A stretch of 64,000 bases of DNA, from positions 1 through 64,000 of the forward strand of contig WFTQ01000050.1 of the NCBI GenBank assembly GCA_015485355.1, written 5' to 3'. The position numbers and the translations under genes were made by a program. The notes beneath the pieces are model-generated. The model was not told where the DNA came from and made no database searches. It worked only from the letters and a program-made list of their open reading frames with translations. This document shows, piece after piece, positions 8,354-37,300 of the stretch (position 1 is the stretch's first letter; every line of letters begins with the position of its first letter). This stretch comes from a bacterium (GTDB lineage: Bacteria > Calditrichota > Calditrichia > RBG-13-44-9 > J042).

Positions 8354-11300
8354 TCAATCCTCCCGCCGTTCCGAAGGGCCCAGCAGCTCCCGGATGGTGT
8401 CTAACAGCGTCGTGGGACTAAAAGGCTTTTGAATAAAATGCTCGCCGGGATTCAACCGACCCTCGCGTAACACCACATTATCGGTGTATCCGGAAATAAA
8501 GATGACTTTCACATCGGGGAAATGGCGCCGGATTTGTTGGGCCAATTCGCCGCCACTCATTTCCGGCATGATGACGTCGGTCAACAGCAGATGAATCGGC
8601 TGAGAGGTCTTTCTGGCCATTTCCAGCGCTTCGCGTCCCTGCCGGGCTTCCAGCAGCCGGTAACCGTTTTCGGTTAATACCGATCGAATCAGGTTGCGGA
8701 CGGCTTCATCATCTTCTACCACCATAATCGTTTCGGTTCCTTTCAATGCCCGCTGAGGGGATCGCCTCTCCATGGGGCTGGGATGGGCGGGACCGGCGTC
8801 CACCCGGGGCAGGTAAATCTTGAAGGTAGAGCCTTTGCCGGGTTCACTATAAACCCAGATGAAACCATCATTCTGCTTAATAATGCCGTATACAGTGGCC
8901 AGACCCAAACCGGTGCCTTTGCTTTTGTCTTTGGTGGTAAAAAACGGTTCGAAGATGTGTTGCTGAATTTCCTTGTCCATTCCCACGCCGGTATCGCTTA
9001 CGGCCAGCATCACGTAACGTCCCTTCCGGGCCCCCATATGCGTTTCGATGTAATGATCGTCCAGTTCGACATTGGCCGTCTCGATGATAAGTTTTCCACC
9101 GGTGGGCATGGCATCCCGGGCATTGACCGCCAGATTCATCAAAACCTGTTCCACCTGATTGGGATCGATCTTTACGTTTCCGGCTTCCCGATCCAGATGG
9201 ATTTTCAATTCCACATCCTCGCCGATGAGCCGTTGCAACATGTTGGTCAACTCGTGGATAATGTCGTTCAGGTTGACCACACGGGGTTGCACAATTTGTC
9301 GCCGGCTGAATGCCAGAAGCTGACTGGTCAATTCAGTGGCCTTCTCGCTGGCCCTTAAGATCTGTTGAATCGGTTTGTATAGGGAGGAATCCGACGGCAC
9401 TTGATTCAACAGCAATTCCGAGTATCCATTGATAATGGTTAAGATATTATTGAAATCATGCGCCACGCCTCCCGCCAATCGGCCCACGGCTTCCATTTTC
9501 TGGGCCTGAAACAACTGGGCTTCCAGCTGCTTACGCTCGGTAATATCGGAAGCGACGCCAATAAGCGCTATGGGCTGGGCATCCCTGTCGTATATCACAG
9601 AAGTGGATAAGAAGATGGGGAATTCCTGCCCGTTTTTGCGTACGTTAAGCAACTCCCCCTGCCAGCCTCCCTGGAGGGTCTGGGGTAAAATCTGGCGGAC
9701 TTTTTCGGGATCGTTGTTGGGAGAGCGAATGCTATCGATGGATTTACCAATGACCTCCTCCTGGGAATACCCATAGATCCGGCAAAAGGCTTCGTTCACG
9801 AAAATGATGTTATCGTCCAGGTCGGTGATGGTAACGGCTTCCCGGATACTGCGTAAGGCGTGAGCCAGCAAGGTGCGTTCTTGCTCCGCCTGCAGCCGCA
9901 GCATGGTAATGCCCAACAGGTTGGCGGCCGTTTTTAAGGCCTCGATCTCGTGGGCCGACCATTCGATTTCGTCCCGGCAATTGTCAAAACCAATAAACCC
10001 CCACCACTGATCCCCTACCAAAATAGGGGCGACCAGAATAATCTGGATCTGCTGGGCCTGCAGCACCTGCTGTTCCGATTCCGGGAATTCGCGCACTTTC
10101 CCATAAATCAAGCGGCCCCGCCCCAGCTCCTTTACCCAGCGGGCAAACCCATTGGTCACATAGGGGAAGTTTTGTAGTTCGGGATTATCAATTTGCGGCT
10201 CGATGCCTTCGGCCACCCATTCGTACAACTGACTGGCCAACAACTGTCCATCGGGAGCCGGATGATTTTTAAAGATATAAACCCGGCTGGCACGGGACGC
10301 CTTCCCCAGCCGTTCCATAATCTCGTGAATATGGCTGTCCCAGTTTCTTCCCTGAAGAAATTTGGTGGCCGCGTAATTCACCGCTTCCAGAATGTCGTCC
10401 TTGCGCTTCAGGGCCTCTTCGGTTTTCTGCCGTTGACTGACGTCCATCAATTGAGCCACAGAACGCACCCGCCCCTGGGCATCCCGAAAGGTGTTCGCCC
10501 GCACTTCCAGGCGTTTTCGCGTCCCATCGCTGCACACCACATCCAGCTCGTAATGAAAGGGCACGTCCTCCCCCTGTTGACGCCTTCGATAGCGCTCCAC
10601 GGTCATCGGTAAATCTTTCTCATCAACAAGTCTTCGAAAGTCCATACCAATCAGCTCGCTTCGGGCGTAGCCCACCATGCGGCAAAATTCATCATTCACA
10701 TAAATCAACCGATATCGATCATCCACCAGAATGACGCCGGAATGAGAACGCTCCACAATGGAACGAAATTTTTCTTCACTGGCACGCAACTGTTTAATCA
10801 TGGTTTTCAGGGCAGAAACATCCCGGATGTAAATGGCCGTCAAACGATCGGCTTCCCCCTCCAGAGGAACCCCGTGCCCCTCTAAGAAGACGGAACGGCC
10901 GTCTTTTCGGGTAAAAGAAACTTCAAAAGGAATGGAAGAATCGGAGATCCCCGTGCTGTTCTGTTGCTGAAGGGCCGCCCATAAGGGCAAGTCTAATTCC
11001 GCCAAAGAACGACCCAGCACCTCCACAGGATTAAGCCCGGTGATTTGGCAAAACGCCGGATTCACATCGACCACCCGGTTCCAACCATCCACCAGAATAA
11101 AGCCATCGCTGATGTTTTCCAGAATCAAACAGGTCCTTCGGTAAAGGGACTGCAGTTCGTTTTCCTGTTGTTCCCGTTCCAGTTCCGCGGCGACTCTTCC
11201 GGCCCATACCTGAAGCAAGCGATGGATCAGCGCTTCCTCCTTTACCGAACGGCAAAACAGCAATCCCATGACCCCTAAAGGTTCCCCGGTACTTCTCATC

Positions 11301-12022
11301 AACGGCCAGCCGAAATAGCGTTTCAGGCCCGCCTGGGCCCCGTCCAGTCCCGCCGGCAAACGGCGCTGGATTTGCCGACGAACAACCAGGTGACCTTTCC
11401 GAAGCACCCGTTCACACCAGGTATTTTCCAGAGGATAGGTTATGTTATTGGCGGGTTCACCACCCCGGTAGATCACCCGGGTGCACAAATACCTGTCATT
11501 CCGGTTCTGCAAGTAGGCCACATAGGCGGCATCGGCCTTAACATAGTGGACAAAAAACTGCATCACCATATGAAAAAACAGGTCCCCCCCGCCGGTGATC
11601 CGGCGTCCATTCGAGGGGATGGGGGGCTCTTCCGAGGAACCGGAAAAAGATTCAAAAAAAACAGCCATATAAAGCGGTTGTTGGTCATCCACCCGCGTTA
11701 CCTCCATCCGGAAAGCAATCGCCGGTGTTTGTGAACACCGCAGGCGTACCGGCAAGACGGTATCGATGTGGGAACTTTGTTTGACGACCAACGCCAAACG
11801 GGCGGAGTCTTCCTCCAACAGAAAATCGAAAACCGACTGCCCCACGATTTGTGGTGGTGAAAGCCCAAGCCGTCGGGCGATGGTATCGCTTACATATCGC
11901 GTTCGTCCGTCACCATCAAACAGCCAAATCCCCGTGGGCCGACGATCGGGGGTCACTCCCGGCGGCCTGCTCCGCTGACCGCGACCGCCGTTGACCACTT
12001 GTTTATTCATCTCCCCATCCAT
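8354..12022 (-). CDS. Soluble multi-PAS/GAF hybrid histidine kinase with C-terminal receiver
   Basis: The protein is 1222 residues with no membrane segment, so it senses cytoplasmic cues. In order, it has a PAS domain, a GAF-like domain, PAS, PAS (both with PAS-type GYARSELIG or GLNPVEVLG turns), a second GAF around residues 550-710, and another PAS. HisKA follows with H855 in AGGVAHDFNNILTIINGY, then HATPase (NLAVNARDAMP, DTGVGMD, GTGLGLATVYGI) and a receiver with D1149 (LLTDVIMPEMSGG) and a KPFSP lysine. The AHDFNN H-box plus terminal REC is common in delta-proteobacterial and FCB hybrid kinases. The ATG at 12022 lacks a strong ribosome site; an ATG four codons on is preceded by GGGGAG with no spacing. 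The gene diverges from porX. Confidence 0.92.
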   Translation of the reverse strand: MDGEMNKQVVNGGRGQRSRPPGVTPDRRPTGIWLFDGDGRTRYVSDTIARRLGLSPPQIVGQSVFDFLLEEDSARLALVVKQSSHIDTVLPVRLRCSQTPAIAFRMEVTRVDDQQPLYMAVFFESFSGSSEEPPIPSNGRRITGGGDLFFHMVMQFFVHYVKADAAYVAYLQNRNDRYLCTRVIYRGGEPANNITYPLENTWCERVLRKGHLVVRRQIQRRLPAGLDGAQAGLKRYFGWPLMRSTGEPLGVMGLLFCRSVKEEALIHRLLQVWAGRVAAELEREQQENELQSLYRRTCLILENISDGFILVDGWNRVVDVNPAFCQITGLNPVEVLGRSLAELDLPLWAALQQQNSTGISDSSIPFEVSFTRKDGRSVFLEGHGVPLEGEADRLTAIYIRDVSALKTMIKQLRASEEKFRSIVERSHSGVILVDDRYRLIYVNDEFCRMVGYARSELIGMDFRRLVDEKDLPMTVERYRRRQQGEDVPFHYELDVVCSDGTRKRLEVRANTFRDAQGRVRSVAQLMDVSQRQKTEEALKRKDDILEAVNYAATKFLQGRNWDSHIHEIMERLGKASRASRVYIFKNHPAPDGQLLASQLYEWVAEGIEPQIDNPELQNFPYVTNGFARWVKELGRGRLIYGKVREFPESEQQVLQAQQIQIILVAPILVGDQWWGFIGFDNCRDEIEWSAHEIEALKTAANLLGITMLRLQAEQERTLLAHALRSIREAVTITDLDDNIIFVNEAFCRIYGYSQEEVIGKSIDSIRSPNNDPEKVRQILPQTLQGGWQGELLNVRKNGQEFPIFLSTSVIYDRDAQPIALIGVASDITERKQLEAQLFQAQKMEAVGRLAGGVAHDFNNILTIINGYSELLLNQVPSDSSLYKPIQQILRASEKATELTSQLLAFSRRQIVQPRVVNLNDIIHELTNMLQRLIGEDVELKIHLDREAGNVKIDPNQVEQVLMNLAVNARDAMPTGGKLIIETANVELDDHYIETHMGARKGRYVMLAVSDTGVGMDKEIQQHIFEPFFTTKDKSKGTGLGLATVYGIIKQNDGFIWVYSEPGKGSTFKIYLPRVDAGPAHPSPMERRSPQRALKGTETIMVVEDDEAVRNLIRSVLTENGYRLLEARQGREALEMARKTSQPIHLLLTDVIMPEMSGGELAQQIRRHFPDVKVIFISGYTDNVVLREGRLNPGEHFIQKPFSPTTLLDTIRELLGPSERRED

Positions 12023-12581: not shown

Positions 12582-14140
12582 ATGAAGAAAAATAAAATTT
12601 TATGGGTGGATGACGAAATCGAGTTTCTGCGGTCTCACATTCTGTTTTTACAGGAAAAAGGCTATCAGGTTGACGTGGCCACCAATGCCGACGATGCCCT
12701 GGGCATGATCCAGAAACACCATTACGATCTTGTTTTACTGGACGAAACCATGCCCGGTAAAGACGGGCTGACGGCTTTAAGCGAAATGAAAACTTATAAT
12801 CCCGCATTGCCGGTAATCATGATCACTAAAAACGAAGAAGAGACCTTGATGGAAGAAGCCATAGGGTCCCATATCGACGATTATTTGACCAAGCCGGTAA
12901 ATCCCAGTCAAATTCTCCTGGCCGCGAAGAAAATTTTGGAAACCCGCCGTATCTCTCAGAAAAAGATCACCCGGGACTACGCCCAGGAGTTGAACAACAT
13001 CACCATGCAGCTGATGTCCCCCTGGAACCGGAAGACTGGATAAACATTTATGGGAAACTGACCCAGTGGGACATTCAGCTGGATGAGGTCGGGGATCGGG
13101 ACCTTCGGGAAGTGATCCATCATCAACGGCGGGAATGCAATGTGGAATTCGGGAAATACATCGAAAAAAACTATCGTCATTGGGTAAACAGTGCCCAACG
13201 GCCGCCCCTTTCGGTGGATGTGATAAAACAACATGTTTATCCGGAACTGGAAGCCGGCAACAAAGTGGTGTTGGTGGTCATCGATTGTTTACGTCTGGAC
13301 CAGTGGTTGACCCTGGAACGCTATTTTTACGATTTTTACCACATTCAACGGGATTACTACTTTTCCATACTTCCAACGGCCACACCCTTTTCCCGCAATG
13401 CCATTTTCAGTGGACTGTTCCCGTGCGAAATCGAAAGGCGGTATCCAGAGCTCTGGGCCAAGGGGGAAGACGATGATTACAGTCGCAACCGTTACGAGAA
13501 CCAATTGCTTTACGACCAGCTACGATTGCTGGGTTTGCGGCTGAAAACCGCACCGCGATATTGCAAAGTGCTCAATATGGAAGAAGCCCGTCAGGTGGAA
13601 AAGAACCTGGAGGCCTATCTGAACACCCCCATCTTTGCCTTGGTTATCAACTTTGTGGATATTTTGGCCCATAGCCGTTCGGATTTACCCATTCTCAAAG
13701 AAATCGCCCCGGACGAATCGTCATACCGTTCGCTTACCCGATCCTGGTTCGAACACTCTCCCTTTCATTCTATTTTTCAGAAGCTGGCCACTATGGACGC
13801 CACCGTTATCCTGACCACCGACCATGGCAGCATTCGCTGCCTGCGGGGGACCAAAGTGCTGGGCGACCGGGAAACCTCCACCAATCTGCGGTACAAATAC
13901 GGCCGGAATTTAAAAGTGGATCCCAAACACGCCCTTATCGTCAAGAATCCTCTGGACTACAAGCTCCCCCGGCGCAATTTCAACATCAATTACATCATCG
14001 CCAAAGAAGACTATTACTTTGTGTATCCCACAAACTACCACAAGTATCTGGCCCATTATCGGGATAGTTTTCAGCATGGGGGGATTTCCCTGGAGGAAAT
14101 GATTTTACCGGTTGTCAAGCTGGAATCGAAAGTTGGATAG
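12582..14140 (+). CDS. porX: PorX-type response regulator with PglZ domain (T9SS regulator), split by an apparent frameshift
   Basis: PorX is the response regulator controlling type IX secretion in Bacteroidota. The receiver (ILWVDDE, phospho-acceptor D54 in LLDETMPG, IMITKNEEE, LTKPVNP) runs in one frame until a stop at 13041-13043. The PglZ phosphatase-like domain (VVLVVIDCLRLDQW, ILPTATPFSRNAIFSG, TTDHGSIR) runs in another. Translating the second frame back from 13112 gives linker residues PEDWINIYGKLTQWD, which match PorX linkers, up to a C5 run at 13018-13022. One added base there restores a 519-residue protein of normal PorX length, ending 14 bases before tsaE. Start ATG 12582 has AAGGGGG six bases upstream. 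The split is either a sequence or assembly error, a real mutation, or programmed slippage; I favour the first. Confidence 0.88.
13018..13022 (+). other. Frameshift point in porX (run of five C)
   Basis: The receiver frame and the PglZ frame are both coding-like up to and from this C run. Reading TCC then re-reading one C (a -1 shift) joins them without loss of conserved linker sequence. Without the shift the first frame ends 19 bases later at TAA. Confidence 0.75.
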
Positions 14141-14154
14141 ACCAAGAGGCCGGT

Positions 14155-14646
14155 ATGCGAAACACGAAAACACCGATCCCGCACCAGCCCCTCCGGACGA
14201 GGGTAAAGGCAGCCGTGACCCATTCTCCGGAAGAAACGGCTCGGCTGGCCCGGGAGTTCGCCGCTCGATTACGGCGAGGGGATGTGGTGGCCTTTCTGGG
14301 TGATCTGGGCAGTGGCAAAACATTTTTCATCCAGGAAATTTGTAAGGCCCTGGGATGTCGGGAATACGTGACCAGCCCCTCGTTTACCATTCTTCAGGAG
14401 TACCACACGGCCGATAACGTCCCCATTTATCATTTCGATTTTTATCGCCTGACCCACCCGGCCGAACTGCTTCACCTGGGACTGGACGATTTTTTTTACG
14501 GCGATGGCATCACCCTCATCGAATGGGCGGATAAGATTCCCCGGGAGTTGCCTGTGCCCCGGTGGGAGATACAGCTGAAATTTGTGAACCACCAGCCCAC
14601 CCAGCGCCGGATCCATATCTATCGTCTGGAGGCCGGGCATGACTAA
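14155..14646 (+). CDS. tsaE: tRNA t6A threonylcarbamoyl complex ATPase TsaE
   Basis: TsaE is the ATPase that resets the TsaBD complex during N6-threonylcarbamoyladenosine formation at A37 of ANN-decoding tRNAs. The protein is 163 residues with Walker A GDLGSGKT, the SPSFTILQEY switch region, YHFDFYRL (Walker B area) and ITLIEWADKIP. These are family hallmarks. An N-terminal extension of about 20 residues precedes the core. AAGAGG lies ahead of the ATG. It begins 14 bases after porX and overlaps tsaB by 8 bases, so porX-tsaE-tsaB-rimI reads as one operon. Confidence 0.95.
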   Translation: MRNTKTPIPHQPLRTRVKAAVTHSPEETARLAREFAARLRRGDVVAFLGDLGSGKTFFIQEICKALGCREYVTSPSFTILQEYHTADNVPIYHFDFYRLTHPAELLHLGLDDFFYGDGITLIEWADKIPRELPVPRWEIQLKFVNHQPTQRRIHIYRLEAGHD

Positions 14647-15334
14647 GTCGACCTCCGCACCTGTTCTACTCCTGGGACTGGAAACTTCCGGGTGGACCTG
14701 TTCAGTGGGGCTGAGTCGAGACAATCGGCTTCAGATGGAAATTGCCACCCATTTAAAACACATCCATTCCACCCATTTGGCCCCTTTTGTAGAACGGGTA
14801 TTAAAAACCCTTCGGGTTTCCCCTGCCCATCTCAGCGCACTGGTGGTTTCCGCCGGGCCCGGTTCGTTCACCGGTCTGCGCATCGGGTACAGTCTGGCTA
14901 AAGGACTGGCTCACACGCTTCGGATTCCGCTTATCGAAGTCCCTACGCTGGATGTCTGGGCTTTCCAGACAGGCCCGCAATCCCATCCTATCTTTCCCGT
15001 CATCGATGCCCATCGGGAGGAAGTTTTTACCGCCGAATATCAGTACCGGGAAAATTTCCTACGGATTTCGGATTACCAACTTCTGTCCCTGGAAGCATTC
15101 TGTGAAACTGTGACGAAAAAATCCGGTGTGGTTACCGGGCAGGACGTCCAACGTTTCGAGGGGATCTTTCGAGAACAATGTCCCCGGAATTCGCTTATCT
15201 TTCGTCCCAACCCACCCCATCCGGCTCAGTGGGCTTTACTGGACCTGGGTTATCAAAAGTACTTAAAAAAAGACTTCGCTCTGCTGGAATCGGCAGAACC
15301 CATGTACATGAGGGCATTCAAGGGTGTTTTATGA
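14639..15334 (+). CDS. tsaB: tRNA t6A threonylcarbamoyl complex scaffold TsaB
   Basis: TsaB is the ASKHA-fold partner that dimerises with TsaD for t6A synthesis. The protein is 231 residues, as usual. The motifs are LLLGLETSGWTCSVGL at the N-terminus, HSTHLAPFVERVL, and the highly conserved VSAGPGSFTGLRIGYSLAKG. PVIDAHREEVFTAEY follows. It overlaps the end of tsaE by 8 bases and its stop overlaps the rimI start, showing tight translational coupling. TsaD and TsaC are not in this window. Confidence 0.95.
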   Translation: MTKSTSAPVLLLGLETSGWTCSVGLSRDNRLQMEIATHLKHIHSTHLAPFVERVLKTLRVSPAHLSALVVSAGPGSFTGLRIGYSLAKGLAHTLRIPLIEVPTLDVWAFQTGPQSHPIFPVIDAHREEVFTAEYQYRENFLRISDYQLLSLEAFCETVTKKSGVVTGQDVQRFEGIFREQCPRNSLIFRPNPPHPAQWALLDLGYQKYLKKDFALLESAEPMYMRAFKGVL

Positions 15335-35770: not shown

Positions 35771-37300
35771 ATGAACCATAGGGTACGTATCTGCTTGATC
35801 CTCTTATTGTTAAGTACTCCCACCTGGGCGCAGTTTTTGGTGCTTTCTTCCGATCCGGCCGATGGGGCCACCCATGTCCCCACCTCAACCACCATCCGCT
35901 TCACATTCAGCGATTCCCTGGATCCTCAGGCCAATCCACAGGGTTTACCTGTCCGTTTTCTGGCAATATCGCCCAGGGATTCGATCGTCATCGATTCGGT
36001 CTATTTCAGCAGCGATTTTAAAACCCTCTACATGGACGTTACGCAAACCCCGAACACCGATTTCGTCCTGATCATATCCTGGGCCGTCAGTATCAACGGA
36101 GACACACTGGCCCGTCCGTACGCACTGAATTATACCACGGCGGCTGACTACGGGCAGTATTCCATCAGTGGCACGGTATTTCTCCCGGATGGAGATCCAA
36201 CCAATACTTACGTCATCATTACCCCCAAGTCCGTTTTTGCAGACGACTCCAGCGAAGGCAATCCCGCTGTGATTCACTCCGCCTCAATCGTGCTGAATTC
36301 TCAGGGTACTTATACCCTAAATTATGTTCGAAACGGCACCTATTGGGTCACCGGTGCCTATGACACGGATCGAGATGGGTTTATCAACCCCAACGCCGGG
36401 GATTTTGTGGGCTTCTACGATGCAGACGGCGACGGCGAAGAGGATAGTGTAGTGGTTCAGGACGGCAACCTCACGGGAATTGACCTCAATTTGTTTACGT
36501 TCACACCGTACACGGTGCGTCAACTGGTCGACAGCGCCCGCACCCTGGCCCATCAGTTTGCTCAAGATCAAAAGCTGCTGTTTATCGGTACCTGGACCGA
36601 TTCCCTGATGGAGGGACGCTCTTTTTATTGGCATTTTATATTCTATTCCCCGACCCTGGGCTATTACACCGAAATGACCCTGGGGGTTTTCCAGTTCACC
36701 ATCGATACTTCGAGCTCCAGTTTCATGCCCCCGGATGCGGTGGAAATCCCCAATCAGTTCATCGACAGCGATACCGCCTTTCAGATTGTGGAAATGGCCG
36801 GAGGTCTCCTTTTTCGGCAACAGTACGAGGTTTATGAAATAAGCATGCAAATTGGGAACTTTTTCTGGATCTATGCCGACGATCCCAGCAAAGTGGTCTG
36901 GTACTTCGAATACAAAGGCGTGTCCCCTCAGGACAGCATTGAAGCCTCTTTCCACGCCGTGGTGGACGCCCAGGACGGTATGGTCCTTTCCACCACGGTA
37001 ACGTCCATCGACGAGGACCCCGCTCCCGGGCGGGTTCAACAATTCCGCCTGGAACAAAATTATCCCAATCCCTTCAACCCGGTCACGACCATTCGGTTTA
37101 CTCTGCCCACAAGCAGTCGGGTGATCCTGAGAGTCTATGATGTTACCGGCCGGGAAGTAGCCACGCTTCTTCAGAGGCGCCTGCGCGCCGGTACTCACAA
37201 GGTTACTTTCGATGCGACCCATCTGCCCAGCGGCGTCTATTTCTACCAGCTGAAAGCAGGCAAGTACGCGGCCACCAGGAAAATGATCTTAATGAAATAG
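35771..37300 (+). CDS. Secreted T9SS cargo with Ig-like domain, Ca-loop motifs and type A sorting domain
   Basis: The protein is 509 residues. A signal peptide (1-20, cleavage after TWA) exports it by Sec. Residues 25-118 form an SbsA-type Ig-like domain (SSDPADGATHVPTSTTIRF). Near 198-226 two aspartate-rich loops, DTDRDGFINPNAGD and DADGDGEEDS, look like dockerin or EF-hand calcium sites. Residues 425-509 are a T9SS type A sorting domain: LEQNYPNPFNPVTTIRFTLP, YDVTGREVATLL, GTHKVTFDATHLPSGVYFYQL and the last MILMK. The cargo would cross the outer membrane through T9SS and lose this domain. AAAAGGAG precedes the ATG, and a strong terminator follows. No catalytic domain was recognised in the middle. 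Confidence 0.9.
   Translation: MNHRVRICLILLLLSTPTWAQFLVLSSDPADGATHVPTSTTIRFTFSDSLDPQANPQGLPVRFLAISPRDSIVIDSVYFSSDFKTLYMDVTQTPNTDFVLIISWAVSINGDTLARPYALNYTTAADYGQYSISGTVFLPDGDPTNTYVIITPKSVFADDSSEGNPAVIHSASIVLNSQGTYTLNYVRNGTYWVTGAYDTDRDGFINPNAGDFVGFYDADGDGEEDSVVVQDGNLTGIDLNLFTFTPYTVRQLVDSARTLAHQFAQDQKLLFIGTWTDSLMEGRSFYWHFIFYSPTLGYYTEMTLGVFQFTIDTSSSSFMPPDAVEIPNQFIDSDTAFQIVEMAGGLLFRQQYEVYEISMQIGNFFWIYADDPSKVVWYFEYKGVSPQDSIEASFHAVVDAQDGMVLSTTVTSIDEDPAPGRVQQFRLEQNYPNPFNPVTTIRFTLPTSSRVILRVYDVTGREVATLLQRRLRAGTHKVTFDATHLPSGVYFYQLKAGKYAATRKMILMK

Follow-up and report, generated by a model that had tools for sequence, protein, structure and literature searches.

The stretch of DNA analysed in this work (the window, 64,000 nucleotides) belongs to a genome assembly of 3.44 Mb in 114 contigs that is 98.7% complete (G000). 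It carries a porX gene that is divided over two reading frames and followed by two further genes on the same strand:

12582 to 13043, plus strand: 5' part of porX, encoding the receiver domain and the start of the three-helix bundle, followed by an out-of-frame tail ending at TAA 13041-13043
13018 to 13022, plus strand: run of five C with the one-base frame change, read from the sequence and coinciding with a one-base gap relative to a same-genus relative
13022 to 14140, plus strand: 3' part of porX in the other frame, encoding the remaining helix bundle and the PglZ/alkaline-phosphatase-like phosphodiesterase domain
14155 to 14646, plus strand: tsaE (TIGR00150, 113 bits), 14 bases after porX
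14639 to 15334, plus strand: tsaB (TIGR03725, 147.5 bits), overlapping the end of tsaE

Depending on whether ATG 12582 or ATG 12576 is taken as the start, the receiver frame encodes 153 or 155 residues. The PglZ frame is open past a stop at 12827 up to 14137, with its stop codon at 14138-14140, and contains no ATG near the break. Homology crosses from the first frame into the second at the C run, where the reading frame shifts by one base, and the joined product comprises 147 + 372 = 519 residues. When the joined protein was used in tblastn searches, G000 returned two matches in different frames that meet at residue 147, and nearly all relatives returned one unbroken match. The two-frame observation was thereby confirmed, far beyond chance. 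In the PorX protein of Flavobacterium johnsoniae, the receiver occupies residues 2-121, the helix bundle residues 122-205, and the PglZ domain residues 206-517 (PMC10951265). The break separates residues 147 and 148 of the joined protein and lies within the three-helix bundle, so that neither half ends at a domain border or forms a complete functional unit.

Both halves could be assigned to PorX. The receiver half matched the Pfam family Response_reg (5.6e-28) and the other half the Pfam family PglZ (1.3e-17). In the NCBIfam profile NF052313 (T9SS_RR_PorX, 513 positions, curated cut-off of 300 bits), the receiver half covered positions 2-143 with 212 bits and the PglZ half the adjoining positions 147-513 with 492 bits (491.8), the latter exceeding the cut-off by itself. 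The receiver has kept the acidic pocket and the D54, T82, and K104 motifs, including the phosphorylatable Asp expected of PorX. The PglZ part has kept the metal and nucleophile motifs VVID, LPTAT, NFVDILAH, TTDHG, and FQHGG, and the zinc-site residues of its PglZ domain align with those of structure 8ted, as expected of the PorX C-terminal domain. The joined read-through is collinear from end to end with the solved PorX structures (7pv7/7pva/7pvk and 8ted/8p6f), in the order receiver, helix bundle, and PglZ, and matched 8ted with an E value of 2.3e-148. The BREX-3 phosphatase PglZ (NF033449) has the PglZ domain in common with the window gene, but the score of 110.6 bits falls below the cut-off of 250 bits of that family. 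A PorX protein is expected to be encoded by a single continuous frame of about 515-520 codons; in comparison to known PorX (NF052313), the gene in G000 has one base fewer at the C run, hence the two frames in the assembled sequence. An initial reading, made from the sequence alone, had proposed a porX gene broken by one base at this run, and the profile matches, the 519 joined residues, and the frames that adjoin there bear this out. G000 possesses a single PglZ gene without a spare copy, and no second copy of porX was found in this genome.

PorX is also expected to occur in genomes with a type IX secretion system (T9SS). G000 was found to contain 65 T9SS sorting-domain matches, an SprA-type translocon, and PorV-family proteins, and its T9SS therefore looks in use. 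Downstream of porX, tsaE was found within 600 bases in 50 of the 75 relatives with sufficient room. On the other side, the divergent neighbour of porX (window 8354-12022, minus strand) encodes a large histidine kinase of the hybrid type, in which PAS repeats are combined with a receiver at the C terminus. A hybrid kinase that is 69% identical also adjoins porX in a same-genus relative. Among the other close relatives listed, for some of which the contigs are short, no such neighbour of porX was found.

The closest relative is the same-genus Calditrichota MAG M_MetaBat.96 (JAADJD010000037.1; G001 among the class members, L045 in the contig scan). Its porX is 89% identical and its frame unbroken, and the gene order is that of the window, with tsaE downstream and the divergent hybrid kinase upstream. 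When both genes are aligned, G000 is short of one base precisely at its C run. In G001 and several other relatives, the proline codon at the break is CCG and not CCC, and the extra base of G001 is not C. The lost base thus need not come from a miscounted C run, a homopolymer miscount being one route among several.

The search for a shared split covered 40 class members and 80 loci of a wider contig scan. PorX was present in 34 of the 40 class members, including 22 of the 23 of high quality, and only G000 and G013 gave two matches. The split at the position seen in G000 was found neither in the 33 further PorX-bearing class members nor in the 80 loci, and in about a hundred relatives porX is whole at this position. 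In G013 (C143:4730-6080), a MAG that is 62% complete, PorX is interrupted at a different place, with about 65 residues absent. Three of the 80 loci lacked one full match: L062 is interrupted by an assembly gap of N, L067 by a contig edge, its match beginning at residue 65, and L086 by an in-frame deletion across receiver and linker. This last PorX protein, from an Ignavibacteriales MAG (L086:2505-3824), is without about 73 residues, by deletion or misassembly. The split is consequently private to the G000 assembly. A relative with the same split had been proposed as the test for a programmed shift, and the outcome of this search is negative.

Both halves are under purifying selection. The differences between G000 and G001 at codon positions 3, 1, and 2 amount to 66, 15, and 5 for the receiver (66 of 86 at the third position) and to 178, 40, and 14 for the PglZ part (178 of 232), and no further stop or indel was detected in either half in comparison with G001. 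After polarisation with outgroups, 31 amino acid-changing and 99 silent codon changes were assigned to the G000 branch, as compared to 17 and 86 to the G001 branch, so that amino acid change on the G000 branch is not significantly in excess (Fisher p = 0.19). No sign of pseudogene decay was found. Given that both halves are constrained without such an excess, the break, if real, would be young relative to the split of the G000 and G001 species.

Taken together, we consider that the missing base is probably the result of a local assembly or consensus error, which we favour, with modest confidence, over a recent null mutation. Several observations argue for an error: porX is intact at this site in the same-genus relative and in the other class members, it is the only PglZ gene of the genome, the T9SS looks in use, and the two halves differ from those of G001 mostly at third positions, with no additional lesion and no significantly raised proportion of amino acid changes. 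Furthermore, porX lies just ahead of tsaE and tsaB, and a broken porX would be expected to place 1.1 kb of untranslated RNA ahead of these genes, which should be costly. In case of an error, porX would be an ordinary single-copy gene of a Calditrichota bacterium, the base being present in the organism and lost in assembly or consensus, and the cell would make a normal PorX of 519 residues. By analogy with the studied homologs, kinase input would then be transmitted via the receiver and the helix bundle to the zinc phosphodiesterase domain and from there to type IX secretion.

The assembly itself speaks against an error. Orthologous ORFs were compared both ways between samples of about 497 kb from G000 and 1.54 Mb from G001, in a scan that was repeated after more sequence had been sampled. 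Among 142 orthologous ORFs (55,064 codons, 165 kb), porX was the only frameshift in G000, although 359 C/G runs with a length of at least 5, along with 689 A/T runs, were present in the aligned genes. The reciprocal scan revealed no frameshift in G001, its single flag being the same porX event viewed from the other side. Without porX, there are zero frameshifts in about 164 kb, corresponding to a 95% upper bound of about 0.018 per kb. A break suspected in SprA, which gave two matches on contig C54, was discarded, since the gene was reported as one open frame of 942 codons near the contig end. The G000 assembly is thus not homopolymer-ridden, a systematic homopolymer error is ruled out, and the porX event is isolated. 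The sequence-only reading had considered an error in the homopolymer the simplest cause. An error is still slightly the likeliest explanation, as low rates apply here to rare local errors of the consensus as well as to rare genuine mutations, but the low indel rate weakens the argument, and with so many runs unshifted elsewhere and an extra base in G001 that is not C, a homopolymer error is not supported as the obvious cause.

The same freedom from other frameshifts supports a very recent real frameshift, by which the sampled strain, or part of the population, would be porX null and make only a receiver fragment of ~153 residues. We regard this as a serious contender, to which we give a little under even weight. 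A recent loss would leave no decay, as is seen, and a viable null is conceivable since porX is dispensable in F. johnsoniae, where its loss has a mild effect, reducing growth on chitin by about 40% (PMC11320123). In Porphyromonas gingivalis, the loss is severe, and removal of either the receiver or the effector domain left under 10% of gingipain secretion (PMC11320123). Against a null mutation stand the retention of PorX in most class members, the lack of decay in both halves, and a likely polar effect of the break on tsaE and tsaB.

Alternatively, the break might be real and tolerated. Programmed -1 frameshifting or slippage at the C run would provide a free receiver together with occasional full PorX, uncoupling motor binding from phosphodiesterase output in the T9SS. 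In principle, a C run would allow a single proline tRNA in the P site to slip back by one base and pair again, and a free receiver might serve a function, given that the CheY-like domain alone was enough for GldL binding in F. johnsoniae (PMC10951265). However, no relative is split at this place, the zero-frame codons ATG TCC CCC TGG offer no X XXY YYZ tandem slip site, and folding of the 100 downstream bases is no more stable than that of shuffled sequences (z = +0.75). Searches run without a positive control gave no match for GldL (TIGR03513) in the 40 class members and none for GldM (TIGR03517) in G000, so that the known motor may be absent or strongly diverged. No programmed frameshift in a response regulator was found in a search of the literature. 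Slippage yielding the fused protein, as initially suggested, is therefore very improbable. Functional fission into two proteins is hardly credible: the PglZ part would start at GTG 13112, the first usual start codon of its frame past the break, but this codon lies 68 bases past the stop and has a weak ribosome-binding site, and a protein started there would lack about 30 conserved residues of the bundle (148-177), which can be aligned to the solved PorX structures. The weights given to an error, a recent null, and programmed or split function are a judgement, in which the last two-part group jointly receives a very small share. The break in the porX of G000 comes from a slip of the assembly or from a mutation of very recent date, and does not represent a novel type of gene control.

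A real break that persisted would offer a natural test of whether the PorX receiver can work in the absence of its enzyme part. For the present, its main importance is for annotation: automated gene calling would report porX as a pseudogene or as two genes, in a genome in which type IX secretion seems to be in use. The PorV family appears to be large in G000, with about eleven genes over the curated cut-off and 20 matches in all, on contigs C72, C2, C35, C47, C81, C77, C16, C54, C70, and others. The best-scoring T9SS type A sorting domain of the genome is located in the window itself, at the C terminus of a 509-residue ORF (35771-37300, plus strand).
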